46,874 bases of DNA from a candidate division Zixibacteria bacterium RBG_16_53_22 (GTDB lineage: Bacteria; Zixibacteria; MSB-5A5; UBA10806): contig MEWP01000155.1 of the NCBI GenBank assembly GCA_001775395.1, positions 52,457-99,330 of the forward strand. Direction: 5' to 3'. The position numbers and the translations under genes are program-made. The first letter of the stretch is position 1; every line of letters begins with the position of its first letter. Below are positions 11,699 to 29,083 of the stretch, piece after piece. The notes below the pieces were generated by a model, which did not search any database, was not told the origin of the DNA, and saw only the letters and a program-made list of their open reading frames with translations.

Positions 11699-13723
11699 CT
11701 ATCTTAAGATGGTGATTTTCCTGAAAGCAGTTTTCTTTTCCCCCGACAGGCTCGCGCAATAGACACCCGAGGCCAGCCTCTGGCCTCCATCGCCAAGACC
11801 ATCCCATTTAATCGAATAATGCGCCGGGCCGTATCGGCCCTCAAGGAGCCTTCTAATAAGTCGGCCATTGATGTCATAAATAGAAAGTCGAATCGACTGC
11901 GAACCCCCCTCGATAGCAAATTCAATAACCGCGGAATTATTGAATGGATTCGGATAGATATTCTCGATGGACAGCTCTTTCGGCAAAGGCAACCGGCCGG
12001 AATCGTCGATACCGGTAACAACCCGAGCGCTGTCCATTATCCAGTTGTCGGGATCAAACAGCAGCGCTGTCGGCGGTGATTGCAGGGATATCTGATAACG
12101 CTGTAGGGGCAGATAATTATCGAGCCTGATTTCCAGGGTATCGCCGGCTATTATTCCGATCGGGACTGGCATGGTGAATATCGGGGATTGCACTTGAACC
12201 TGCGCGATATCGAGAAAGACCGTAAACGAATCCCCCTCCGCTGACCAGCTCCATGAATAATTATAAACCGGGAAGCCCTGGCCATAAATCCATTGATCGA
12301 AAAATGGATCGAGCTCGCATCCACAAGCTCCCTCCATGACATCGCGGAACTCGTCGGTGGTGGCATTACCATATGCGTAGGTTTGAGCGTAGGCGTGAAG
12401 CCCGGCATAAAAATTCTGGTCCCCCGTTATGCCGCGAAGCATATGCAGGACCCAGGCCCCCTTGACATAGACATTCACGCCGAACAGATCGGGAGGATCA
12501 AAGATGGGATGACGACCGGCGCTCTGCTCGTATGCATAATAAGTGTTCTGGTAATCGAGCATGGTCTGAGCGAACGCCTCCTCACCATGCGCGGCCTCGT
12601 TGTACAGGGCCGAGGAATACGTTGCAAAACCCTCGTTCAGCCAGATATGACGCCAGTCGGCCATCGTTACCAGGTCGCCCCACCACATGTGGGCCAATTC
12701 ATGAGCGTAACCGAGTTCCAACGCCCTGTCCCCGGTTATCCAATTGCGATTGATGGTGGTCATGGTTTGATGTTCCATGGCCCCGGCGAAAAACGGCGCA
12801 ACGCTTCCCTGGCCATACTTTTCGAACGGATATGGATAAAACAAATCGGAAAAAAGGCTCATCATGTCGGGCACGGTGGCGAAATCATACGCCGCATCCA
12901 GGGAATCCTCGCGCCAGACCATGTAGAATATCGGAATGGAATCGCCGTCGTCCTCGACATAGTAATCAGTCCAGGTGGCATAGTCGCCCATGATGAGGTT
13001 GATCAGGTAGGTAGCTATCGGCAGGTTGGTCACCCAATGATAAGTTTTGACATGCGATACCTGATCGTGTATGACGTCGGCAAGATAACCATTGGAGCCA
13101 ACCTCGTAAGTTTCCGGCACGGTGGCGAATATCTCCGCGGTAGCCTTGTCCCACGGCTCATCGTAGCAGGGGAACCACCAGCGAGCGTCCTGCGGCTCGG
13201 CCATGGTATAGCTGTTGCGGGCATAATGGTAATAGCCTCGGCCGTCCGAGGTGTCGTGATAGAAAATTCGGACCAGGAGCGTCTCGGGAAAATGATGAAC
13301 CGCTCCCAGATTGATCGCTATGGACGTATCATCGAAGCTATAATTGGCGCGAACCGCCCCGGCGAACACGGAATCCGCGATAAGACCCGCCATGTGAAGC
13401 CTGATATGTGAAATCGTGTCATCGACCACCTGGAACCGCATCGCGACATTGCCCAGGTAAAAATCGGATGTCATTGGGAAATTTAGAAATATCCGATATG
13501 AGAGCGCATCGAACGAATGGACCGAGTCGAATAAGGCCTTTGAGAATCTGCCGAGCGGTTTTTCTTCGAGGAAGGCCAACGGCTTGATTTCGCTCGACCC
13601 CTCGTTATGGGGAATATAGGCCGAAACACGGTCGCCGGCGAGCCCATCGGCCGCAAGATAAGAACATATCGGGAAAGTCACCAGGATCAGAAACAACAAT
13701 AGAGGTTGCGTCGAACGCCCCAT
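11699..13723 (-). CDS. exported M1-family aminopeptidase with C-terminal sorting domain
   Basis: A 674-residue protein with an N-terminal signal peptide (hydrophobic about 7-22). The gluzincin catalytic set is intact: HELAH (His341, Glu342, His345) and Glu364 in WLNEGFATY. The exopeptidase motif reads GAMEH (314-318) rather than GAMEN. The M1 N-terminal beta-saddle precedes it. There is no ERAP-like C-terminal domain. The last 85 residues form a sorting-type Ig-like domain: ENIYPNPFN, YDINGRLIRRL, a WDG turn, LASGVY and a basic end KITILR. It should cleave N-terminal residues from peptides outside the cell or at the surface. It is last in a four-gene run of exported hydrolases, 71 nt after the M36-like gene. 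Confidence 0.87.
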   Translation of the reverse strand: MGRSTQPLLLFLILVTFPICSYLAADGLAGDRVSAYIPHNEGSSEIKPLAFLEEKPLGRFSKALFDSVHSFDALSYRIFLNFPMTSDFYLGNVAMRFQVVDDTISHIRLHMAGLIADSVFAGAVRANYSFDDTSIAINLGAVHHFPETLLVRIFYHDTSDGRGYYHYARNSYTMAEPQDARWWFPCYDEPWDKATAEIFATVPETYEVGSNGYLADVIHDQVSHVKTYHWVTNLPIATYLINLIMGDYATWTDYYVEDDGDSIPIFYMVWREDSLDAAYDFATVPDMMSLFSDLFYPYPFEKYGQGSVAPFFAGAMEHQTMTTINRNWITGDRALELGYAHELAHMWWGDLVTMADWRHIWLNEGFATYSSALYNEAAHGEEAFAQTMLDYQNTYYAYEQSAGRHPIFDPPDLFGVNVYVKGAWVLHMLRGITGDQNFYAGLHAYAQTYAYGNATTDEFRDVMEGACGCELDPFFDQWIYGQGFPVYNYSWSWSAEGDSFTVFLDIAQVQVQSPIFTMPVPIGIIAGDTLEIRLDNYLPLQRYQISLQSPPTALLFDPDNWIMDSARVVTGIDDSGRLPLPKELSIENIYPNPFNNSAVIEFAIEGGSQSIRLSIYDINGRLIRRLLEGRYGPAHYSIKWDGLGDGGQRLASGVYCASLSGEKKTAFRKITILR

Positions 13724-13794
13724 TTTCCATTTCTTCTTTCCCTGTTGAACAATGACATCATATCAACAGTTCGATGACAATATACCCAAACTCC

Positions 13795-16700
13795 TCATCT
13801 CAACAACGTCATTTTCTCCTGCCTGGCGCCTTGCTCCGTAACAAGCCGATAGAAATATACCCCCGAGGCCACGGGAGATCCGGCCCGGTCGATACCTTTC
13901 CAGACTGCATTATAACTGCCCGCGTTCAACTTCTCGTTGATCAGGCTGACTACGCTGCGGCCGAGGATATCGAAAATTTCAAGCCGCACATGCGACGGCT
14001 GCGGCAGGCTGAAACTGATGTTAGTCTCCGGATTGAAGGGGTTGGGCCAGTTTTGCCCCAAAGACAATCGACCTGGCTGAATAATATCCTGGTCCACGCC
14101 CACGAGCGTTTCCATGGCCCAGCCGATGTCATCGAAGACCAGGCCGACCCAGGTAGATTCAGCGTCCGTCTTGAAACGAAGGCGGAATCTGTACTGGTGG
14201 GCGTTTGGATGCAAGATGGGAGTTATGTTGTACTCTCTATAATGATATCCCGAGATCTGTTCCCCGGTTATGAATCCGGCCCTATACCAATTCTGTCCAT
14301 TATTGTTGGAGATTTCAATCAGGCAGGAATCGTTCGACCTGACGGCACCCCTGGTATGGAAAAATACCTTTCCGGCTCCGAATGGGGAAAGGTCGAAAAT
14401 CGTATTCGCGGTTATGGAGGAGTTGGCATTGTTAGGGTAATTGGGGCTCGAATACCAGATTGAATGGTTTGAGTAGTAGCCGTCATCGCGGAGAATCCAG
14501 CCTCCATCGTTTGTCCAGCCTCCCATGCCGTTGCGCTCAAAATACTCGAAAACCTCCGTCATGACCATTACATAGCCGAATGAGCCGGTTTGGGGAAGGC
14601 GGCCGGTATTCGGCTGGTGAGCGGTATCCCGCGCCGTAAAATAATAATGGATTGTGTCTCCGATGGCAAGCTGACGGTCGAGGTCGATCGAGGCCAAGAT
14701 AAATTCACCGTCGTTTGGCCCGGGGGAAAGCGACGCCGCCGCTTCCGATTCGTTGTTAACATAGTAATGAAGCCTCACCTGCGATGGATCGATGCCATTT
14801 ATGTCAAAAGCATTCATGACAAACGGCCCATAAGGCCCGAATAGGTTGACTGTATTCCGGGGACCTTCAATGAGAGCCAGAGTCGGGGGAATTAGATCGG
14901 GGCCGACATAAAACGAATAATGCGTGTCCGGCGCTCCCGGGGGCCAGGTGCCTCTGAATCCTCCGTTGTCGACTGCCAGAACGTAGTAACCCACATGGGT
15001 GTCATTCGGCTGCGGCGGGATGGCGGCCTGCCACTCACTGCCATTCTGAGCCATATTGATCGGCTGGAAACCGCCGCCGTTGTCATAAAACAGGATTATG
15101 GAATCAGGATTAATGCTGAATATCGTGGAGATCGAGGCGCTCACCGTGAAAGAGCGTGTCGTATCCTCGGAATCAAACAACGTGTCGGCGGAGATCGAAA
15201 TCGTTGTTCCCGGGCCTATTCCGTGCCTGTCGCCGAAATTATGGAATATGGTCCAGGCGTTCGGCGTGCCGTTTTCGAGATTGCCATCGTCGTCATCGAG
15301 AGCGACGAAGGCCCAGAAATACGGCTCGAACTCCTGGGTCAATGCGTAGCGGGCGTAATGCCACAGGGAATCGACATATCCCATGCCGTAAGGCGAAAGG
15401 TCGGACCTCGCATGCCACAGGGCGCCTCCGATTATCAAGCCGTCATTGTGCGGTTCTCCATTCCAGTGAATAGGATAGCGGCGGTCGTTGTCCAGAGTCC
15501 TCAGGTAGCCGTTGGGATCGTTGGAGTAGAAACCCCTGCCGACTATCGGCTGATTGGTAACGGTGCAGGCCAGGTAATCGGAAAATCCTTCGTGCATGGC
15601 GCCGTCGGGCCCAATTGGCCTGGTCTGAAGATCGGTGACGCCGTGCCCATACTCGTGATAAACGACATCGGCAATCTGGGCCGTATTGTTGCATTGGCCA
15701 CCGGCGCTGTAGAAATTGATACTCAGGTCCCAGCCGCTCCAGAATGCGTTGCAGGTGCCACTGACATAAACATTGCAGGTCATCGGGAAATCCATAACCG
15801 TCAGGTTGGGATCGAGCATTTTTATCCATTGATGGACATAGACGGCGCTATACCAGGCATCCCGCTCGGCCGGCAGAGAATTATCCTGGTTCCAATAGAC
15901 ATTGTAGGTCGCCGGAGGATCGACAATATCGGCGATATGCGATTCCGGGCCGGCCTCATTCCAGACTTCCATAAAGGGGCCGCGGAAATAGGCGTCGACA
16001 GAAACAGGATTGGAGCCGGCCAAATCTATGGTGTAACCGCCATTCATATCGGTGGTGACCGGGCTGCCATTGAAAAATATATCTTGATGGAAGAAATTGC
16101 GGTCCTGCCAGGGATCGAACGGATAAAGTGGCTGGATCGATCCCGAAATGGTGCCGGAGACTACATCGTAGTAGATCTTGTTTGTCCGCTGAAGCAGTTC
16201 ACCATTTTCGGCGTCAACGAGAGTTTCCCATACGGCATACGGTTCGCTCACCTTTACAATCACTCGATAAGCCGGACGATAAACGGTCCCGCTTTCGAGA
16301 TAAAGCGGTATTATCACCCGGTCCTGATAATCCTTGCTTGCCGCATGCCCTGAAAGGCCGTTTCCGGCGATTTCCACAGCCTCATCAGGCGATAAGGTGA
16401 ATTCGGAAATGCTCATGGCTGACATATCGAGATCGCCCCAAAGCAGATTCGCCCGGCCCTGGGGGCTGATTGCGATTCCGACTCCCGCATCGAGTATCTC
16501 CACACCGCCAAGCTCCTTGATAAACCTCACAAACCAGACACGGTCCATAGCGAATTTGCTGGAAACGAGCTTAAGTTCAAAATTGGCAGGAACCAGTTGA
16601 TTTGAGGCCAGAAATTTCCGCGCCGCCTTTTCGGCGTTGGATTCGTCTATGAGCGAGAAACCGGTGGTCCCTCTACCGGGAGCGACCACAACCATTTGTG

Positions 16701-16908
16701 ACGGTATTTGGTTGTTAACGGCAACGTATGGAGCTTCGAATCGCCTCTCCTGCCCGGCGACCCTGGAATCCCCACTCCAATTCACGTAATCGGGTGTCCT
16801 GAAATCGAAACCAGGTTTCTCGATTGTCCCATCAGTGCTTTCATGTCCGGTAATTGCCATAGCCGATGAGGCCATAAGCGCGAAAAAGAAGAATACCCTT
16901 GTTCTCAA
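13795..16908 (-). CDS. exported M36-like (fungalysin-type) metallopeptidase with C-terminal sorting domain
   Basis: A 1037-residue protein read from a TTG start with AAGGAG about 10 nt upstream. A signal peptide (about 1-18) is followed by a fungalysin/thermolysin-type propeptide region (about 85-245, including ESNAEKAARKFLASNQ). The catalytic domain has HEYGH (His418, Glu419, His422) and the third ligand Glu440 in GAMHEGFSDY, an M36-style arrangement. M4 is less likely because the second motif is HEGFSDY and the domain is interrupted. A carboxypeptidase-regulatory-like insert near 255-300 is possible. After about 570 come Ig-like and jelly-roll (MAM-like) regions. The last 90 residues are a sorting domain (NWPNPFNPETNISF, FDILGRSVVSL, VASGVYFYRL, ending KMTLLR). 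It probably digests proteins extracellularly, feeding the M1 enzyme. Confidence 0.83.
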   Translation of the reverse strand: MRTRVFFFFALMASSAMAITGHESTDGTIEKPGFDFRTPDYVNWSGDSRVAGQERRFEAPYVAVNNQIPSQMVVVAPGRGTTGFSLIDESNAEKAARKFLASNQLVPANFELKLVSSKFAMDRVWFVRFIKELGGVEILDAGVGIAISPQGRANLLWGDLDMSAMSISEFTLSPDEAVEIAGNGLSGHAASKDYQDRVIIPLYLESGTVYRPAYRVIVKVSEPYAVWETLVDAENGELLQRTNKIYYDVVSGTISGSIQPLYPFDPWQDRNFFHQDIFFNGSPVTTDMNGGYTIDLAGSNPVSVDAYFRGPFMEVWNEAGPESHIADIVDPPATYNVYWNQDNSLPAERDAWYSAVYVHQWIKMLDPNLTVMDFPMTCNVYVSGTCNAFWSGWDLSINFYSAGGQCNNTAQIADVVYHEYGHGVTDLQTRPIGPDGAMHEGFSDYLACTVTNQPIVGRGFYSNDPNGYLRTLDNDRRYPIHWNGEPHNDGLIIGGALWHARSDLSPYGMGYVDSLWHYARYALTQEFEPYFWAFVALDDDDGNLENGTPNAWTIFHNFGDRHGIGPGTTISISADTLFDSEDTTRSFTVSASISTIFSINPDSIILFYDNGGGFQPINMAQNGSEWQAAIPPQPNDTHVGYYVLAVDNGGFRGTWPPGAPDTHYSFYVGPDLIPPTLALIEGPRNTVNLFGPYGPFVMNAFDINGIDPSQVRLHYYVNNESEAAASLSPGPNDGEFILASIDLDRQLAIGDTIHYYFTARDTAHQPNTGRLPQTGSFGYVMVMTEVFEYFERNGMGGWTNDGGWILRDDGYYSNHSIWYSSPNYPNNANSSITANTIFDLSPFGAGKVFFHTRGAVRSNDSCLIEISNNNGQNWYRAGFITGEQISGYHYREYNITPILHPNAHQYRFRLRFKTDAESTWVGLVFDDIGWAMETLVGVDQDIIQPGRLSLGQNWPNPFNPETNISFSLPQPSHVRLEIFDILGRSVVSLINEKLNAGSYNAVWKGIDRAGSPVASGVYFYRLVTEQGARQEKMTLLR

Positions 16909-16926
16909 AATGAGTCTACTCCTTCC

Positions 16927-18483
16927 CTATCTAATCAATAACATCTTATTATCAGCCTTAAGAGGGCCATTGTCCAGCACGTAAAGGTAAATGCCCGATG
17001 CCAGCTTGTTGTCAAATGAATCTTTGCCGGCCCAATAAACCGTACCCTCGGGATTATTGTTTCCGGCTATCCTTGCAATCTGCCTGCCCTGGATATCATA
17101 AATGCGCAGGGTCACCGGATACTCGACGCTGGCGCCGGCATAATGAATGAATGTGCCATCATTGAACGGATTCGGATAATTCGAGATGAGAATCGTATTC
17201 GGCAATGGCGGGGGTTCGGGCGGGAAATCATCTATCAACTCAGCGGTTTCACGGTAGAATCCGGTGAAAATGACGCCGGCGATTCTGTTTTCCTCGTAGT
17301 AAACCTCGCTTGCGGAGGGCGGGTCGGATGACCAGTTCTCGAGCATCGATCCGGCCTGATCAATGCCCCATTTCTCGAGGGGCAAAGTATATGAATATAC
17401 ACCATGGCCGTCTTCATCCAGCAAATATCGGCTGTTGAGATGGTATGAGGTCTGAGGGTTGTCATATAACTGCCGGGATCGCGAATTGCAGTATTGGACG
17501 ACGGGTGCGCCCTGCGGATTCGATAAGGGCTCCGGGACGTTTCCACACCTTACCCACAAGGGGAACGCGACCGATAAAATCGGCTGCCCCAGCATGGCAA
17601 ATATCGTCGTTTGATGGGCCGGCTCATCTCCCCTGGTTCCCCTGATAACCACAGCCGACGTCGTCGAACGGTTGCAGATTGTCACGCCCGAATTATAAAT
17701 ATATCCGGCCGGTCCTCCATGCTGTATGCCGTTATATGGGAGCGGATATGGGTCATCATAGATATTCGCCAGATCGCGGGCCAGGCTTTCAAGAACAAAT
17801 CCGGCATCGATGGCATAGCTTGCGGCACGATTCGCAGTCAGGGAGCAGGCCCGATCATACCTATCCTGTCCAGTGTGATTTACATTGCCGCTCAATGAAA
17901 AATTGGCTCTAATGATATACATCCCCGACTGTGCCCCGGTATCCTGGGCCGCATACCTGACATAGCCATAGTTGGCGCATTCATATAGCGCCGACGCTCC
18001 GGTAGAATCGAGGCAACCGAAATTCCAGCAATCACGCCGCCCGGTGATATTGGTAGAATCCAAAAGCGCCTCGAAATCTCCGAGCGTTCGGCACGTCTCG
18101 AGCGCGATCCTCATCAGTGTGCCGTCATCGGTGCCATAGCTAAGTGAATCGCCCAGGTTATACGAATCGGAATTCATGACGGCGAATCCGCGCTCATTCG
18201 CGCCCATGTATATCCTGGTGGTGTCGTTTCGGTAGCAATCTCCTACTAAAGCGAGGGTGGTGATGCCATCTCGCGAATATGGACTGCAATGGATGAAGCG
18301 CTGGTCGGGATTGCCAACGTCGCGATTCTTCCAGATCATCGGCCGGCCGTCGGCCGTGACACCGCCCCCAAACACGCCGACAGTGCATTCCCCCAACCCC
18401 CCAATATTGATCCAATCTTCCGCATAGATAACCACATTCGTCAGAAGGAAAGTTGCAGTGATAAAGCAAGCCTGTATTCGCAT
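16927..18483 (-). CDS. exported Ntn-hydrolase-like (C45-type) protein with sorting domain, paralogue 2
   Basis: The frame opens at 18549, where ATG overlaps the stop of the previous gene. I prefer the ATG at 18483, which starts a proper signal peptide (RIQACFITATFLLTNVVIYA), giving 518 residues. After it comes GECTVGVFGG with Cys33, then DGRPMIWKNRD, the pattern of linear-amide C-N hydrolases and C45 acyltransferases, where autoprocessing exposes Cys as nucleophile. The middle shares long blocks with the next gene upstream (DDPYPLPYNGIQHG, WNFG, RIYMGANERGFAVMNSDSYN), so they are tandem paralogues. The C-terminal 85 residues are a sorting domain (SNYPNPFNDGTF, ending KMLLIR). The substrate is unknown; an amide or acyl bond is the family expectation. 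The family call is by motif only. Confidence 0.65.
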   Translation of the reverse strand: MRIQACFITATFLLTNVVIYAEDWINIGGLGECTVGVFGGGVTADGRPMIWKNRDVGNPDQRFIHCSPYSRDGITTLALVGDCYRNDTTRIYMGANERGFAVMNSDSYNLGDSLSYGTDDGTLMRIALETCRTLGDFEALLDSTNITGRRDCWNFGCLDSTGASALYECANYGYVRYAAQDTGAQSGMYIIRANFSLSGNVNHTGQDRYDRACSLTANRAASYAIDAGFVLESLARDLANIYDDPYPLPYNGIQHGGPAGYIYNSGVTICNRSTTSAVVIRGTRGDEPAHQTTIFAMLGQPILSVAFPLWVRCGNVPEPLSNPQGAPVVQYCNSRSRQLYDNPQTSYHLNSRYLLDEDGHGVYSYTLPLEKWGIDQAGSMLENWSSDPPSASEVYYEENRIAGVIFTGFYRETAELIDDFPPEPPPLPNTILISNYPNPFNDGTFIHYAGASVEYPVTLRIYDIQGRQIARIAGNNNPEGTVYWAGKDSFDNKLASGIYLYVLDNGPLKADNKMLLIR

Positions 18484-18545
18484 ATTGGCGGCTACTCTTG
18501 GGTCATGGCCCGGATCTACTCTATGGCGGGAGTTGGGCCGACCTC

Positions 18546-20090
18546 TCATTTCATCAAGATTGTCTTAATTGTTGCCGAACGGCTGGCCGAGACGGCATTC
18601 ACCAGGTAAACCCCGGAGGCCAGGGAATTGCCGTCTGCATCACGGCCATTCCACCTAAGCCTGACCTCATTTGACGCGGCGACTCCCACCTTGTATACCA
18701 GTTGGCCCAGCATGTTATAAATTCCGACATCAACCCATTCTCCTTCCCCGAATCCCGATAAGGCCATCGACGCCTCGGAATTAAAAGGATTGGGATAGCA
18801 TGATATCGATGCTATTTCGGGCTGATCTGCGATTGCTTGATTGGGGAAATCAAGAGGAATCCCCAGGTAGCTGTCATAAATACTATCCGCCAGAGCGCTC
18901 TGGACAGAGGCAAATGTGGCCGAACCCGGCAACATCAGACGCCAGTCGGTCAGGTAACCCTCGACAGCATCGATGATGCCGGATTCGAGGGCAAGCGTAT
19001 ATGTAAGAAGGCCGACGCCGTCCTTGCCTATCAGGTACCGGCTATCGATGTAGTTGGCATCACCCCTGAGCGGATACAATCTTCCGATTCGTCTGGTAAC
19101 CTGAACGAACATCGGCACCTGAACGCCGGCGTTCAGGACGGCCGGTACGGTATGCGATCTCACCCACATCGGAAATGCCACCGACAAGACGGGCGGCCCA
19201 ATCATGCCCCAGACTGTGGACAGGCAGGGATTTTCGCCCGGCGCCACCCCTTGTATTACAATTAGGGAGCGGGAAATCGTGCGGCTGATGGTGACGTCGC
19301 GCGCCAGGATAAAACCGGCGGGTCTCCCGTTCTGGATACCGTCATACGGCAATGGGTAAGGGTCATCGATCGGGTTGGCGAGGTCGCGCGCCAGCGTTTG
19401 AAGCACGTATTCAACGTCGATGCGGTCTGTCCGCAGGCGATTCCTGACCAACTGGGTGGCGCGTTTATAACGCGGAAAACCATCGCGATTGTTATCCCCG
19501 GAGAGGCTGAATGTGGCGCGGATAACCACACCTTCCCCCTCGTTCAGCGAATCGTTGGCATCGTACTTTGCATACCCGAAATTCGCGGCCTCGTACATGG
19601 CGGCGTTGCCAAAAGCATCGATGGCGCCGAAATTCCAGCAGTCGACGCGGCCGGCCACCGAGGTCACATCGAGTATCGCCTCGAAGTCAAATATGGTCCG
19701 GCAGGTTTCAAGAGCGAGCCTCATGATACGGCCATCGTCTATGCCATCCTGTCTTTGATCGCCGAGATTATAGGAATTGGCATTCATTATGGCGAAACCG
19801 GCCTCGTTAATCCCCATATAAACCCTGGTGGTATCGATAGAATAGCAATTAGCAAGATATGCAAAGGTGGTATCGAAACCTATTATTACGGGATCGTAAT
19901 GGCAAAATTTCTGGATAGCGTTGGTGACGTCACGGTTTTTCCAAAGAATCGGTCTGCCATCGACTGTGGCCTGCCCGGTGAAAATACCGATGGTGCATTC
20001 ACCCACAGACGGCGGGGTAATCGACATGGGATTGTCGATCAGTAAGACCGGAAGTGTTAAATAGAGGACAAAGCTCAAAAAGCGACGCAT
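18546..20090 (-). CDS. exported Ntn-hydrolase-like (C45-type) protein with sorting domain, paralogue 1
   Basis: A 514-residue protein, first of the four-gene run. The signal segment (RRFLSFVLYLTLPVLLI) is followed by GECTIGIFTGQ with candidate nucleophile Cys32, then DGRPILWKNRD. IYMGANERGF-like and DDPYPLPYDGIQNG blocks match the downstream paralogue. The end is a sorting domain (ISCYPNPFNSEAS, IYNMLGQLVYKV, LASGVYLVNA, ending TILMK). In Ntn hydrolases of the C45/C59 type the Cys becomes N-terminal after self-cleavage; here 31 residues precede it, including the signal, so cleavage would remove only a short propeptide. It follows a promoter at 20115-20142 and overlaps the next frame as ATGA at 18546-18549. 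The start has only a weak ribosome site (GGAAATGATGG). Confidence 0.65.
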   Translation of the reverse strand: MRRFLSFVLYLTLPVLLIDNPMSITPPSVGECTIGIFTGQATVDGRPILWKNRDVTNAIQKFCHYDPVIIGFDTTFAYLANCYSIDTTRVYMGINEAGFAIMNANSYNLGDQRQDGIDDGRIMRLALETCRTIFDFEAILDVTSVAGRVDCWNFGAIDAFGNAAMYEAANFGYAKYDANDSLNEGEGVVIRATFSLSGDNNRDGFPRYKRATQLVRNRLRTDRIDVEYVLQTLARDLANPIDDPYPLPYDGIQNGRPAGFILARDVTISRTISRSLIVIQGVAPGENPCLSTVWGMIGPPVLSVAFPMWVRSHTVPAVLNAGVQVPMFVQVTRRIGRLYPLRGDANYIDSRYLIGKDGVGLLTYTLALESGIIDAVEGYLTDWRLMLPGSATFASVQSALADSIYDSYLGIPLDFPNQAIADQPEIASISCYPNPFNSEASMALSGFGEGEWVDVGIYNMLGQLVYKVGVAASNEVRLRWNGRDADGNSLASGVYLVNAVSASRSATIKTILMK

Positions 20091-23253: not shown

Positions 23254-23272
23254 GGGGGCCCAAGAGGCCCCC
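23254..23272 (-). terminator. GC-rich hairpin between convergent genes
   Basis: GGGGGCC and GGCCCCC pair perfectly around CAAGA, just after the CPBP stop and 24 nt past the stop of the convergent cohesin-like gene. On the minus strand TATTAATTT follows the stem, so termination there is plausible; there is no T-run on the plus strand. Confidence 0.45.
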
Positions 23273-23295: not shown

Positions 23296-23844
23296 TTATT
23301 TAACTTTTATGGTTCCGCCCTTGAAAAGGCAATCCACCTCCAGAGCAGATGGTGTCCAGAAATGATACCCGTAGTCAATCCTGGGATTTGGCAGGAACGC
23401 ATTGGGGCCACTTTCAAGGGTTAGTGTACCGGCTTTCATATCGGCGGGCGCCGTAAACCAGAGCGTGGCCACCAGGCCATCGCCGGGAAGCAGCGGGGCC
23501 ACTTCCTGATTAGGGTCGACCATATAGATAAACGCGAAATAGACCGTTCTCCCAACCGGCTCGATCTTGTAATCGCTCAGTCCGAAATGAGCGCAGCGCG
23601 AGCCCTGGAATGTGACGGAATCACATACGACTTTGACGTCCTCGGATCGATAATAAATCGGGACCTGCATGCCGGCCAGAGTGTCGATATTGTCGACAAA
23701 GACCTTAACCGGGAATGAACTGCCTTTGGCAATCTCGACGCTTTCGGTATAACAGGTGTTGGCTTTCTTCGCGACCTCTTTTTCCTCGGCCGCAATTATC
23801 CCCCATGTCCCAAGCGCAAGCACAAAGAATAACAATTTTCTCAA
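23296..23844 (-). CDS. exported cohesin-like protein
   Basis: A 182-residue protein read from TTG with GGAGG 4 nt upstream. A signal peptide (RKLLFFVLALGTWGIIA) is followed by one beta-sandwich domain with cohesin features: a VEIAKGSSFPVKVFVDNID strand, LAGMQVPIYYRSEDVKVVCD, and GDGLVATLWFTAPADMKAGT near the end. Cohesins bind dockerin domains. It starts 19 nt after the LVIVD/dockerin gene, so a cohesin-like and a dockerin protein are made from one message. It lacks the sorting tail seen on the other two cohesin-like proteins, so it may be soluble or held only by its partner. The call rests on pattern, not on a full alignment. Confidence 0.6.
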   Translation of the reverse strand: MRKLLFFVLALGTWGIIAAEEKEVAKKANTCYTESVEIAKGSSFPVKVFVDNIDTLAGMQVPIYYRSEDVKVVCDSVTFQGSRCAHFGLSDYKIEPVGRTVYFAFIYMVDPNQEVAPLLPGDGLVATLWFTAPADMKAGTLTLESGPNAFLPNPRIDYGYHFWTPSALEVDCLFKGGTIKVK

Positions 23845-23863
23845 ACTGCCTCCTATTTTTAAA

Positions 23864-25885
23864 TTAACAATCGCCTCGAATTGGCGCCGGGCCCGTACCT
23901 TTGAGATAGGCCACCAGATAGGTCACGTCGAGTCCGTTTACGGAACAACTGCCGTTGACATCTCCTCTCAGCAGGGGGTCGGGTGGCGGCACCTGCCCCT
24001 TAAAGTACGCTACCAGGTATATGACATCCAGGCCATTGACGCTGCCATCGCCGTTGGCATCGCCCGGTGAAAAATCCTGGAAATATAACAAAATCAACGA
24101 ATAGTAATCCGAGATATAGGAAATCTCATTATAAGTAAAAGCGCCGACAGCAATTCCGGGCGTATCAAATGCGGCGCTGCGGGTCGGGCTGGTCTTGTTG
24201 ATGACATTTATTACCGTATAACCGCCATTGCGATGGCTGACGTGCAGGAAGTTCGACGAGAAATAAATATCGGATATGACATCGGTAAGGGTGTAATTAG
24301 ACACGAAAAACGGGTTTGCCGGATCCCCGACATTTATTATTACGGCATCATCAACAGCGTCAGCCAGGTAGGCGTAATTCCCGTCCGCCACAACAGCCGC
24401 CACATTTCCCGACGAAACATAAGTTCCGAGAAGAGCCGGATTGGCCGGATCGACCAGGTCATAGATATGGCACCCGGCCTCGGATGAGGCTATGTATAAC
24501 CTGGTTCCATTTACAAATACGTTCACTGGATATCCTGCTGGCGTAAAACTCCCGACAAACCCTATATTATGGGGATTGCCGATATTAAAGATCTGCACAG
24601 AATTATAGTCCGCAACATAACAGTATGTTCCCAGGATGGCCAGCGACTTGGCAAATCCGGGGGTGTCGTAGGTGTCTGCGATGGTAGGCGCCGCGGGATT
24701 GGTCACGTCTGCCGAAACCAAACCGCCCTGCCGATCGGCCACGAATGCATAATTGCCGGCGCACTTGACATCTTCGGCATTTCCGGGCGTATCGATCGAA
24801 CCAAGCCAGACCGGCACCTCCGGATCCTGGATATTGACCACCTGCAGTCCTGTTTCCCACGTGGCGACATAGGCATAATTGCCAACGACGTCGCATTTTT
24901 TGACATAGGAGGTCTTAAAGTCGCCGGCGGCTACGGGCAGGGATGGATCATTGATATTGTAGATTTCCATCCCAGCCTGCCCATCGGCCACGAATGCATA
25001 GTTAGGTGTCACCCACAATGATCGCGCGGTTCCGGGAGTGATATGGCTCCCGAGCAAAAAGGGGCTGCCCGGGTTGGTGATGCTTACGATTTCCAGCCCA
25101 TTTGCGAAATCGGCCAGGTAGGCGAAGTCGGGGGTGACTCTGACCCTGTTGACATAGGAGCCCGCCGGATTCGTATAACGTCCGACAAAACTTGGATTGA
25201 CCGGATTGTTGATGTTGACAATCGTCAGGCCGTTAAAGGAATCCGACAGGTAAGCATAATTTGCCTGAATTGTTACCGCTACAATGTAGCCGCCTGAACC
25301 ATAAGCCCCCACCCTGACCGGCGACGCGGGATTGAAGACATTAATAATCTGAAGGCTGTCGCCGTCAGCAACATAAGCGTAGCTTCCGACTACTTTTACG
25401 CCCCAGGCAGCCCCGGGCGTATTGTACGCCGTTAATATTGTGGGCGCTGTCGGATTTGAGATGTTGACAATATAGAGCCCGGCGTTCAAGTTTGCCACAA
25501 AGGCATAGCTTCCCAGAACGGAGATATCGACCGCGGGGGCGCCTGGTGGGAACGGCTCAATCCCAATCACGGTGGGCAGGTGCGGATTAGCCACGTCGAC
25601 GATCAAGACGCCTGCTTCTTCGTTGGCGATATACAGGTAATTTCCCACCATTTCGATATTGAGCGAATTATTTTCAAAACCGAGAGTGGAAATGAGAGCT
25701 GGTTCGGTCAAATTGGTAATATCGAAGATTCCCAGGCCGGAAAAGAAGGTGACATAAGCATATTGCCCCGAAACCCTGACATCCTTGGCCTCAGTCCAGA
25801 CCGTCGATGACAGAAAATCGATATTCTGCGCGCTTGCCGAGGCCGCCATTAACAATATCCCCAATGCGACTGCTGTCCTTTTCAT
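23864..25885 (-). CDS. exported LVIVD-repeat propeller protein with C-terminal dockerin
   Basis: A 673-residue protein with a signal peptide (KRTAVALGILLMAASASA). Thirteen LVIVD-type repeats of about 42 residues fill about 30-590, each with a core like LYIVNISNPTAPTIL or LQVVNIQDPEVPVWL preceded by YAYVAD. They should fold as beta-propeller blades, probably two stacked propellers. The last 70 residues hold two dockerin-type calcium loops, DANGDGSVNGLD and DVNGSCSVNGLD, each followed by YLVAYxKG, and the chain ends RGDC. It lacks the C-terminal sorting domain, so it probably attaches by dockerin-cohesin binding. The cohesin-like gene follows 19 nt later. The ligand of the propellers is unknown. 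Confidence 0.82.
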   Translation of the reverse strand: MKRTAVALGILLMAASASAQNIDFLSSTVWTEAKDVRVSGQYAYVTFFSGLGIFDITNLTEPALISTLGFENNSLNIEMVGNYLYIANEEAGVLIVDVANPHLPTVIGIEPFPPGAPAVDISVLGSYAFVANLNAGLYIVNISNPTAPTILTAYNTPGAAWGVKVVGSYAYVADGDSLQIINVFNPASPVRVGAYGSGGYIVAVTIQANYAYLSDSFNGLTIVNINNPVNPSFVGRYTNPAGSYVNRVRVTPDFAYLADFANGLEIVSITNPGSPFLLGSHITPGTARSLWVTPNYAFVADGQAGMEIYNINDPSLPVAAGDFKTSYVKKCDVVGNYAYVATWETGLQVVNIQDPEVPVWLGSIDTPGNAEDVKCAGNYAFVADRQGGLVSADVTNPAAPTIADTYDTPGFAKSLAILGTYCYVADYNSVQIFNIGNPHNIGFVGSFTPAGYPVNVFVNGTRLYIASSEAGCHIYDLVDPANPALLGTYVSSGNVAAVVADGNYAYLADAVDDAVIINVGDPANPFFVSNYTLTDVISDIYFSSNFLHVSHRNGGYTVINVINKTSPTRSAAFDTPGIAVGAFTYNEISYISDYYSLILLYFQDFSPGDANGDGSVNGLDVIYLVAYFKGQVPPPDPLLRGDVNGSCSVNGLDVTYLVAYLKGTGPAPIRGDC

Positions 25886-26297
25886 TGCTCTACCCTCATT
25901 TTATTGGTTTTCCTCCCCTGCCGGGAGATATCCTATTTTCAGCCTATCAGGTATTATGATGTTAAGCATGAATGAATATCCGGGACAATTACTCGTCGGC
26001 GGCCGACACCCCGTCAATTCCGTTTGGCATAGCCCGAATAAGGTAAAATGCGGCTCGATGCGGGATAATCTCACATCACCCCTTGATTAAAGCGAGTATT
26101 TGGCGAAGTCTTTTCTACAGAACCGCTCAAAGCAGGCTCAGAGAATATTTAAGGTTTCAAGAACGAAGAAGTTTATGGTCCGCCCAAAACCCCTTGTATC
26201 AGACCAATAAAGACACAGCTAAGATAGGCCATTCGAAATTTGTTGGCAAGAAAATTTTTAATAAAGTCGCGACCCGCCGGCAACGTGACATGCCGGC
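25886..26297. other. 412-nt intergenic stretch without a supported gene
   Basis: No reading frame here has a convincing ribosome site, homology or length. GCCGGCA (26276-26282) and TGCCGGC (26291-26297) form a 7-bp hairpin directly after the stop of the 253-residue dockerin gene, but no T-run follows. I could not find a convincing promoter for the LVIVD gene in it. Confidence 0.5.
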
Positions 26298-27059
26298 TCA
26301 GCAATCGGGGCAACTCCGGGGAGCTGATCCGACCCCCTTGAGATATGCCACCATGAAAGTGACATCAATACCATTGAACTGGCAATCACCGTTGGCATCG
26401 GCCGCGGCATAGACCGGGCCATGAGGAGGGCATTCACAGCTATTCGGAGGGGCTGCGCCCAATCCTTTGAGATATGCCACCGAGTAAGTCACGTCCAATC
26501 CATCGAAGGCTCCGTTGCCGTTAGCGTCACCGCCAATCACATCGCATCCCGGAGAGAAATATAAGCAACTGGAGCTCTGGAGGGGCAGAAATTGCACGGT
26601 TCCGTAAATATTGCCCCATAATGACGGTATGGGGCATAAGCCGATTGGGCATACGGTCTGACCGATATACCAGGGATCACTCGTAAGGCGAAATAAATAA
26701 TAGCCTATTTGGATCGTATCGCCGGCCGTATTTATGGGGTACATGGTGTAAAGAGTTGGACAAAAAAATGGCGGAGGCTCATAAAAGCTGCAGCAGGAGT
26801 CGCATAAAGTACAGCCACGCCACAATATTTGGCTTATGATTTGAGAGTTTATCTGCATGGTATTCGACATAAAAGCTATCGTATCTTCCGACCATCCCGG
26901 GGGAGTAGATACCCAGACCGGGAATTGAATTGAGTCACCAATCATGACAGTCATTCTGCTTGCATCACGATTGCCATATATTAAATTGAATCCCTCTTGA
27001 GCGGAGCCAATGACCGGCGCCGACAAAGCTGCCACGAGCATAATAACGGTAAGCCTCAT
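26298..27059 (-). CDS. exported protein with C-terminal dockerin-type repeats
   Basis: I start at the ATG at 27059 because GGAGGG lies 5 nt upstream and the residues begin a signal peptide (RLTVIMLVAALSAPVIGSA); the longer frame begins with TTG. This gives 253 residues. A Cys-rich central beta-domain (about 25-165, with CTLCDSCC and repeated LCPI) is not recognised. The C-terminal 90 residues carry two dockerin calcium loops, DANGNGAFDGLD and DANGDCQFNGID, each with a YLKG-type helix end. It ends CPDC. Like the LVIVD protein it lacks the sorting tail. It has its own promoter (27133-27161) and a hairpin after its stop. The central domain could be a second cohesin-like fold, but I see no clear signature. 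Confidence 0.7.
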   Translation of the reverse strand: MRLTVIMLVAALSAPVIGSAQEGFNLIYGNRDASRMTVMIGDSIQFPVWVSTPPGWSEDTIAFMSNTMQINSQIISQILWRGCTLCDSCCSFYEPPPFFCPTLYTMYPINTAGDTIQIGYYLFRLTSDPWYIGQTVCPIGLCPIPSLWGNIYGTVQFLPLQSSSCLYFSPGCDVIGGDANGNGAFDGLDVTYSVAYLKGLGAAPPNSCECPPHGPVYAAADANGDCQFNGIDVTFMVAYLKGVGSAPRSCPDC

Positions 27060-27132
27060 AGAGCCCTCCAAGCGAAAAGGATCGCAGCTTTAGAACATAT
27101 TGGCAGAACAAAGATCAACGATGTAATAACTA

Positions 27133-27161
27133 GTGTTAGAAGACTAAAAATAGGGTGTCAA
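27133..27161 (-). promoter_or_regulatory. sigma-70-type promoter of the 253-residue dockerin gene
   Basis: On the minus strand, a perfect TTGACA (27156-27161) is 17 nt from TAACAC (27133-27138), a weak -10. It lies just below the terminator of the preceding gene, as expected for an independent unit. Confidence 0.5.
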
Positions 27162-27181
27162 GGCTTTTTTGGATCGGAAAT

Positions 27182-27208
27182 AAAAAACGGGCCTAAGTAA
27201 GCCCGTTT
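27182..27208 (-). terminator. rho-independent terminator after the 280-residue cohesin-like gene
   Basis: On the minus strand, AAACGGGC and GCCCGTTT pair as an 8-bp stem with an 8-nt loop, running into a T-rich tract (TTTTTTA). Confidence 0.88.
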
Positions 27209-27231
27209 CAATAACTTACGCAATGGGCCCT

Positions 27232-28074
27232 TTACTTGAGCATGACCATCTTCATCGATTGTGAGTAATCACCGGCATCCATTCGATAGAAATAGGTGCC
27301 CGATGGTACGTTCTGACCGTTGTTGTTGGTGCCATCCCAAATGACTTTGTGGAACCCGGCCTGCATTTCGCCCGAGACCAGGTTCTTGACCTCCTGCCCC
27401 AGGATATTGAATACCGAAAGTGATACCATACGATCACTCGGCAGCGCGAATGATATCTCGGTGCTGGGATTGAACGGATTCGGGAAATTCCGGCTTAAGG
27501 ACACCTCGGTCGGCAGAGGCTTATCCGGGACAGGCTCACCCGCCCCAAGTGTCAGCATTCCGCCGACAACGACCGGTTCGGAGCTTCCCAGACCATCGCT
27601 AAGGCCGAATAGCGGGCCGCCCGCTCTCCGGTCGATTCTGGGCAATATGGCGACCTGCGAAAATTGGGAGGCATCATCGATGGCCATGATCAGATTGAAA
27701 GCCAAAAGCCTCCTGCCGTTTGTGTTCATCCCGGGATTATCCTCTCCGCCCAGGTCCGCGAAACCCATGTGGAGAGCCTGAGCGCCGTTTTCGCTCACTC
27801 CCTGCCAGGAGTCATCCCAGCCCGCCACAGTCGCGGCGGCCTGCTGGCCGTGGAATCTGACATCTCCCGCGCCCTCGATCTCGAGGGGCAAATTGAAGTA
27901 AGTGACATCACCATGCGTAACGAAATAAACCGGCACAGCCACGCTCGACTGCCCTGCTACAACTGTTGCATTACCAATGATGATACTGTCGGGGCCGGCG
28001 TTCACGGTACCCCCCATCGCCGGCAACGACAACGATAGGACCATTGCCATCCCCAGCAGCAACCCGTATCTCAT
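27232..28074 (-). CDS. exported cohesin-like protein with C-terminal sorting domain (280 aa)
   Basis: A 280-residue protein with AAGGAGG 5 nt before the ATG and a signal peptide (RYGLLLGMAMVLSLSLPAMGG). Residues about 25-180 look cohesin-like: VAGQSSVAVPVYFVTHGDVTYFNLPLEI, then GRRLLAFNLIMAI, typical of domains that bind dockerins. Residues about 190-280 are a sorting domain: LSRNFPNPFNPSTEISF, VFNILGQEVKNL, VPSGTYFYRMD, ending KMVMLK. The combination predicts a surface-anchored receptor for the dockerin proteins next door. It is a separate unit, with terminators before and after. The cohesin call is by pattern only. Confidence 0.65.
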   Translation of the reverse strand: MRYGLLLGMAMVLSLSLPAMGGTVNAGPDSIIIGNATVVAGQSSVAVPVYFVTHGDVTYFNLPLEIEGAGDVRFHGQQAAATVAGWDDSWQGVSENGAQALHMGFADLGGEDNPGMNTNGRRLLAFNLIMAIDDASQFSQVAILPRIDRRAGGPLFGLSDGLGSSEPVVVGGMLTLGAGEPVPDKPLPTEVSLSRNFPNPFNPSTEISFALPSDRMVSLSVFNILGQEVKNLVSGEMQAGFHKVIWDGTNNNGQNVPSGTYFYRMDAGDYSQSMKMVMLK

Positions 28075-28157
28075 TTTTCCTCCTTAGGTAAAAGTTAATG
28101 GAGCCAGACCGTCGTCTCAAAAGCTTTTTACCAGGGTTTGGGGCAAATGGTTCCCTC

Positions 28158-28189
28158 AAAAAAATAAAGGCAGGCCGACGAGGCCTGCC
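28158..28189 (-). terminator. rho-independent terminator after the 290-residue cohesin-like gene
   Basis: On the minus strand, GGCAGGCC and GGCCTGCC pair as an 8-bp stem with a TCGTC loop, followed by TTTATTTTTTT. Confidence 0.9.
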
Positions 28190-28210
28190 CTTAAAATCTG
28201 GAATCTTTGC

Positions 28211-29083
28211 TTACCTCACCATGACCATTTTGTTGGTCTGGCTGAATTCGGGAGTATAGAGCCTGTAGAAATAGACTCCTGACGGGACCACTGTACCATT
28301 ATCGTTCTTGCCATCCCAATGCGCGACATGCCTGCCCGCCTCAACTCTGGCATTGACCAATGTCCGCACCTGCTGGCCGAGGAGATTATAGACTGAAAGA
28401 TAGACATCCTGCTCCTTCGGCAGCATGAATTCGATATTGGTTTCCGGATTGAAGGGGTTGGGGTAGTTCTGCATCAGGGCGAATTCCGCCGGGATTTGGG
28501 TTGCCGGCTCATCGGCCCCCACTACCCCGGTCGACATGAAACCACGCTGGACTCCGGGAGTGATTTCGATTTCCCCGAGCTCGTTGGTGAAGGCCACAGA
28601 GCCACTGCGGTCGTCCCAGGTAGTATCGAGAACGATCAATTGCGAACGCGTATTGGGCGCAATGATGAAGCGCAGGCTCCAGCCATGAACTCTTTGGCCG
28701 TTAGTGAAAAGCGGAGGATTGTGGGATTCAGGCGCAAGATTGCAGAAACCGAACTGCCTGACATAATTCTGGCTGGCAATGACCGTGTCATAGGCATCGT
28801 CCCATTGATTTAGAGGGAAATTGTAGGTCGTGCCGGTTCCGCAGGTAACGCCGCCAAGGGGCGCAATCCACTTCAGAGGCAAGTTGTAATAAAAGACGGA
28901 ATCGTCGCATACGGCATAGATTTGAACGAATCGAAACTGATATGAGTTCGAAGAGTCGACGTGATCCTGAAGACATCCGATAATCAAGCTATCCTGGATG
29001 CCGGGATCATCTGGGTCCTGCTGCGCATAGGCAACGCCTGTCAAGAGCAGGCCTGCCATCAACAACATAATCATCTTTTTCAT
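28211..29083 (-). CDS. exported cohesin-like protein with C-terminal sorting domain (290 aa)
   Basis: The frame opens at 29143, but AAGGAGG 8 nt upstream of the ATG at 29083 and the clean signal peptide KKMIMLLMAGLLLTGVAYA fix the start there, giving 290 residues. Residues about 35-185 resemble the 280-residue neighbour (FYYNLPLKWI, GQRVHGWSLRFIIA, DRSGSVAFTN) and are probably cohesin-like, though more divergent and Cys-containing. The last 90 residues are a sorting domain: MQNYPNPFNPETNIEF, VYNLLGQQVRTLV, VPSGVYFYRL, ending KMVMVR. It has a good promoter and a strong terminator. The tail region is more similar to the neighbour than the head is, so they are likely paralogues. Confidence 0.62.
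   Translation of the reverse strand: MKKMIMLLMAGLLLTGVAYAQQDPDDPGIQDSLIIGCLQDHVDSSNSYQFRFVQIYAVCDDSVFYYNLPLKWIAPLGGVTCGTGTTYNFPLNQWDDAYDTVIASQNYVRQFGFCNLAPESHNPPLFTNGQRVHGWSLRFIIAPNTRSQLIVLDTTWDDRSGSVAFTNELGEIEITPGVQRGFMSTGVVGADEPATQIPAEFALMQNYPNPFNPETNIEFMLPKEQDVYLSVYNLLGQQVRTLVNARVEAGRHVAHWDGKNDNGTVVPSGVYFYRLYTPEFSQTNKMVMVR

Follow-up and report, generated by a model that had tools for sequence, protein, structure and literature searches.

Two adjacent genes in the 46,874-nucleotide (nt) stretch of DNA analysed here (the window), part of contig MEWP01000155.1 of the candidate division Zixibacteria bacterium RBG_16_53_22, appear to encode a non-cellulosomal cohesin-dockerin pair, made together and exported. 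One product is an LVIVD-repeat propeller protein that ends in a dockerin (23864..25885) and the other is a small cohesin that would bind it (23296..23844), both genes lying on the minus strand. The pair would belong to an exported, mainly non-carbohydrate proteome that carries two kinds of C-terminal tag, the dockerin and the sorting tail of the type IX secretion system (T9SS), and the probability of this reading as a whole is put at roughly 55%. Most of what is known of cohesin-dockerin pairs comes from the breakdown of cellulose, and their role in other bacteria is largely conjectural. The initial annotation of the region had described a non-cellulosomal scaffold in which cohesin-like proteins, anchored at the surface by sorting tails, display a 13-bladed propeller and a Cys-rich protein. 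What survives of that assembly is the cohesin-dockerin pair, through the predicted fold, the intact dockerin loops, a pairing kept in seven of seven genomes and a joint absence in two families; the scaffold is not supported. A two-gene pair conserved across two families is small enough for direct expression and testing; should binding prove absent, it would be evidence that the labels cohesin and dockerin can be misleading outside cellulosomes.

The propeller protein (genes and products are named below by the first coordinate of the gene, hence 23864) has 673 amino acids (aa) and was assigned from profiles and orthologs. The 13 LVIVD units claimed for it were all matched (E=8e-95), although they more probably form a pair of propellers with six or seven blades each than a single ring. 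Its C-terminus is a type I dockerin (Dockerin_1, PF00404, E=1.1e-8; 23876..24067, minus strand) that ends 3 aa before the stop and, as read from the sequence, has two intact calcium loops, each of the form D-x-N-x-[DS]-x-S-x-N-G-L-D. Among seven orthologs this dockerin is the best-conserved part of the gene: its mean identity is 77%, that of the propeller body 60%. The gene that follows, 23296, uses a TTG start and encodes an autonomous exported protein of 182 aa without an anchor. Its match to the Pfam cohesin family PF00963 (E=0.006, 17.2 bits) lies below the cut-off of 24.1 bits, and nine of the 14 members of its family match at E<=0.1, the best at 1.4e-6. An AlphaFold2 model built on 12 sequences (the window protein and loci L137-L147) reached a pLDDT (the predicted per-residue confidence) of 87.6, and every one of the 50 Protein Data Bank (PDB) matches listed for it is a cohesin or an entry that contains one, the best having E=8.9e-11 and a TM score of 0.84 by target length. 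The sequence profile of the family found nothing in the PDB at E<=1, so that cohesins were reached by the fold search only, and the protein is taken as a cohesin on the strength of its modelled jelly-roll fold. A search of a plasmid collection with 23296 gave no match. Apart from the signal peptide, no T9SS tail, second domain or module, or lipobox was seen in the protein, and a cohesin with neither a second module nor an anchor would therefore be a partner, or a cap or adaptor, and not a scaffold. Cohesins of two other genomes (L087:7005-7640 and L088:7240-7926) contain an inserted loop that resembles a zinc ribbon, is missing from the window protein and matches the Pfam family ADK_lid (best E=6.7e-12); of these, the one at L088 may also have a lipobox, LVMGC.

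The PDB matches listed for the model include a non-cellulosomal cohesin of Archaeoglobus fulgidus (2xdh, E=2.1e-9) and a Ruminococcus flavefaciens entry titled as an autonomous cohesin protein (4n2o, E of about 5e-7). These share the fold with 23296, but come from different phyla and are at most 19% identical to it, and we know of no LVIVD-dockerin partner gene for either. Cellulosomal cohesins are also among the top structural matches, and the cluster has cohesin and type I dockerin modules in common with the clostridial cellulosome. Unlike that system, it lacks a multi-cohesin scaffoldin with carbohydrate-binding modules (CBMs) and plant-cell-wall enzymes: no multi-cohesin non-catalytic scaffoldin and no dockerin-bearing plant-cell-wall enzyme was found in the window.

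Coupling of the two genes is suggested by the layout of the locus. Five open reading frames, every product of which has a Sec-type signal peptide, follow one another on the minus strand from 29083 to 23296, in the order 28211-29083, 27232-28074, 26298-27059, 23864-25885 and 23296-23844, and the spacers between them measure 136, 172, 412 and 19 nt. The shortest lies between the stop of the propeller-dockerin gene and the cohesin gene and holds a ribosome-binding site, AGGAGG (23849..23854, minus strand). Strong terminator-like hairpins stand directly 3' of the 28211, 27232 and 23296 genes (28165..28193, 27184..27209 and 23254..23272, respectively, minus strand); the region as a whole has eight such matches, close to the mean of 6.5 for shuffled sequence. 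Spacers and hairpins together rule out a five-gene operon, and the genes look like four transcription units in which only 23864 and 23296 are coupled. The initial annotation was thus right about five adjacent exported genes and about the 19 nt between a dockerin gene and a cohesin-like gene. It was also right about two dockerin-bearing proteins, the second being 26298 (below), and about their want of a sorting tail, since TIGR04183, the T9SS type A tail family, matches neither.

The pairing is conserved. Full-length orthologs of the propeller-dockerin protein, 53-70% identical to it, occur in six related genomes (G001-G004, G006 and G007), the named relatives being metagenome-assembled genomes of Candidatus Zixiibacteriota. 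Wherever the propeller gene was found, in seven genomes with the source genome (G000) among them, a cohesin gene lies directly 3' of it, at a gap of -10 to 34 nt with mechanically called starts. These seven pairs span two families, and the identity of the cohesins among the paired loci is 34-69%. Across the class, cohesin relatives were found in 109 of 118 relatives and dockerins in 53 of 58. Among these 58, both modules occur in 50 genomes, the dockerin without the cohesin in three, the cohesin without the dockerin in none, and neither in five. From the domains, the predicted fold and the conserved pairing, we infer that the 23864 dockerin binds the 23296 cohesin.

Several observations weigh against this reading. 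The five genomes without either module belong to two families only, and may therefore reflect one or two events, so that the co-absence is weaker than a plain Fisher test (a value of about 1e-5, worked out by hand) would make it seem. Two genomes (G005 and G008) keep the cohesin 3' of an rlmN-like gene and have no propeller ortholog, and the cohesin can therefore exist alone. Elsewhere in the class, standalone cohesins of the 23296 type mostly have no dockerin neighbour. In a mirror-tree comparison over the seven pairs, cohesin and dockerin identities correlate less well (0.62) than those of cohesin and propeller (0.92), and co-divergence offers no evidence for or against binding. Finally, neither product of the bicistron has a T9SS tail to account for passage through the outer membrane, and both might instead stay in the periplasm. 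The same cohesin locus lies 3' of the rlmN-like gene in L081, L082 and L088, with the propeller gene between the two in L088 and absent in L081 and L082.

The wider setting of the pair is an exported proteome with two C-terminal tags. The source genome (its genome-wide counts rest on searches and on the loci around the matches) encodes about 31 dockerin proteins by a local profile, exported, of which nearly all end within 40 aa of the dockerin and only one also has a T9SS tail. T9SS tails number 112 at E<=0.01, and the secretion system is represented by SprA (687 bits, with neighbours in frame) and by PorV-like proteins below the cut-off only. Among 20 proteins scanned, 18 of them with a dockerin by the local profile or Pfam, no glycoside hydrolase or other carbohydrate-active enzyme (CAZyme) was found, the scan for CAZymes being confined to these proteins. 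The dockerin carriers include peptidases (M28, three M14, M6, C1, C25 and S8, the dockerin of the C25 protein being recognised by the local profile only), a GSDH-type protein, kelch proteins and FG-GAP proteins. Some families end in either tag. Of the LVIVD-type proteins of the source genome, four have a C-terminal dockerin and seven a T9SS tail. In a relative of the same genus (G001), the gene directly upstream of the propeller gene (L077:3975-4826) encodes a protein 37% identical to 26298, with a T9SS tail instead of a dockerin; both are members of a family termed LIGN, a label coined here from a common motif for an unnamed domain of about 170 aa. That the same families end in either tag suggests, from sequence comparison, that dockerin and T9SS tail may be interchangeable in role, for example in surface retention, and the replacement of one by the other between relatives of the same genus offers a route to asking whether a dockerin can substitute for a surface-sorting signal. 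A further step, possible but less probable than the pair itself, would be to see the dockerin as another general tag for retention, placed at the C-terminus of orthologous and paralogous exported proteins instead of the T9SS tail. Soluble single cohesins, 23296 among them, would act as its adaptors, and one cell would have two surface-tagging systems in parallel.

In the mechanism proposed for the cohesin-dockerin pair, both products of the bicistron would be exported by the Sec pathway, and the exported dockerin would fold around calcium and bind the co-made cohesin, which would serve as its partner or as a cap or adaptor. Alternatively, the two near-identical calcium repeats of the dockerin might engage T9SS-anchored cohesins encoded on another contig of the source genome (C137), so that the propeller would be held at the cell surface. 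In the preferred reading, the 27232 and 28211 proteins are separate T9SS cargo of the LIGN family, and 26298 is a member of that family in which a dockerin stands where the T9SS tag would be.

The specificity of the cohesin may be broader than the pair implies. Positions 10-11 of the dockerin are G[ILV] in 41 of the 46 matched loops of the source genome, a near-uniformity that suggests one specificity class, and, set against its roughly 31 dockerins, the genome has five cohesin-like loci, of which four are clear or nearly so and the fifth is very weak. Both facts, together with the two genomes that keep the cohesin without the propeller, would fit a 23296 cohesin that serves many or all of the cell's dockerin proteins in common as a soluble adaptor and lies beside the propeller gene as a retained operon only. 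Since every propeller ortholog has an adjoining cohesin, which suggests a preferred partner, this alternative is considered unlikely. Somewhat less likely again is that cohesin and dockerin are, in this lineage, generic beta-sandwich and calcium-loop modules with a structural role and no mutual binding. In class relatives the two are often fused in one polypeptide (L117-L126), in some cases with a T9SS tail as well, and the lack of a co-divergence signal would agree with modules that do not bind each other; the tightly conserved gene pairing, the conservation of the dockerin, higher than that of the rest of the propeller gene, and the joint absence of both modules in two families speak against it. 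Among the fused forms, an exported protein of about 775 aa recurs across the class (L117-L126, L128 and L131-L133), with an N-terminal cohesin, repeated Ig/BACON-like domains and a C-terminal dockerin, for which head-to-tail assembly could in principle be conceived.

The three remaining genes of the cluster encode LIGN proteins. Those at 28211..29083 and 27232..28074 (minus strand) consist of a signal peptide, a LIGN domain (28499-29023, E=3e-56, and 27520-28011, E=6e-48, respectively) and a T9SS type A tail (TIGR04183, 38.9 and 29.1 bits, cut-off 23 bits). With that tail, a signal peptide and a T9SS in the genome, both have what defines T9SS type A cargo. An AAGGAGG precedes the ATG of the 28211 gene at 29083. 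The third protein, 26298 (26298..27059, ATG at 27059, minus strand, assigned from profiles), joins a LIGN domain (26538-26999) to a C-terminal dockerin with two calcium loops (26310..26531), for which the PF00404 match (E=4e-4, 21.0 bits) is just below the cut-off of 22.9 bits and rises to 24.9 bits with neighbours in frame. LIGN was found in all nine searched genomes of the same order and in none of 12 others of the class, at up to 45 matches in one genome (further examples at L148-L177 and L201-L229) and at times in tandem arrays, such as the five copies of L201:1397-6067. Across the order, LIGN proteins end either in a T9SS tail or in a dockerin. The family gave no Pfam or PDB sequence match; neither 27232 and 28211 nor any of 34 members of the family matched the Pfam cohesin family. 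Comparison with the 23296-family profile by hhalign was weak (26% probability over 40 columns), a few LIGN domains (L174, L222, L226 and L229) show a weak overlap with the cohesin profile, and an AlphaFold2 model from four sequences reached a pLDDT of only 37.7. As cohesins by sequence, 27232 and 28211 were thus rejected, having no Pfam, PDB-sequence or strong profile support, and from sequence the LIGN domains may be regarded as a family apart from recognisable cohesins, to which a distant kinship is possible.

It follows that one of the three cohesin-like domains first proposed stands, that of 23296, by its modelled fold and the Pfam matches of its family. The two proteins described as cohesin-like with sorting tails do have the tails but are not recognisable cohesins, and the Cys-rich protein does have a dockerin, together with a LIGN domain common to 27232 and 28211 that had been missed. 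A surface scaffold fails for the 23296 cohesin because it has no anchor. The version in which T9SS-anchored 27232 and 28211 would themselves be the cohesins that display 23864 and 26298 could draw on their tails, their place beside dockerin genes and the faint likeness of profiles, but is improbable given the absence of Pfam cohesin matches, the fusion of LIGN itself to dockerins, 26298 included, its restriction to one order while dockerins are class-wide, and the separate transcription units of the genes.

Comparable systems have been described from sequence. In the cellulosome-like complex of the Cloacimonadota Candidatus Stygibacter, also inferred from sequence (PMC8542988), exported enzymes have C-terminal dockerins, with S8 and C25 peptidases among them as here, and the cohesin scaffoldin has a conserved C-terminal domain for cell-surface attachment, for which a T9SS review is cited (PMC8542988). 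In that system a single scaffoldin of 3,755 aa combines CBMs with cohesins in tandem, and glycoside hydrolases are present (PMC8542988). The locus described here instead sets a non-enzymatic propeller beside one cohesin that lacks an anchor; small anchored cohesin proteins are encoded elsewhere in the genome, and the 20 proteins scanned include no CAZyme. The hypothetical planctosome of freshwater Planctomycetes, inferred from sequence, is likewise a non-cellulosomal cohesin-dockerin complex with peptidases, M14 in common (PMC6461901). In the accessible part of its description, it is anchored by a lamin-tail-domain protein with P-domains, and T9SS tails, an LVIVD propeller or the LIGN domain were not found there (PMC6461901). 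What sets the present case apart is the coupling of a single cohesin, without an anchor, to a dockerin propeller, together with the exchange of tags and the LIGN family. No paper joining cohesin, dockerin and Zixibacteria was found in the open literature, most subscription journals not being covered.

The better scaffold candidate of the source genome is the cluster on contig C137, which encodes anchored cohesins, one protein of 286 aa with a cohesin and a T9SS tail and one of 707 aa that combines cohesins and an internal dockerin with a T9SS tail. These lie among T9SS-tailed proteins with cohesin or LIGN domains (L032:14019-17168 and L033:2636-5646). In G001-G004, a dockerin protein of about 250 aa followed by a T9SS-tailed LIGN protein of about 730 aa recurs (L211, L217, L204 and L208). 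Elsewhere in the window, four neighbouring T9SS-tailed proteins are encoded at 11699-20090: an M1 peptidase, a thermolysin-like metallopeptidase and two AAT-domain proteins.

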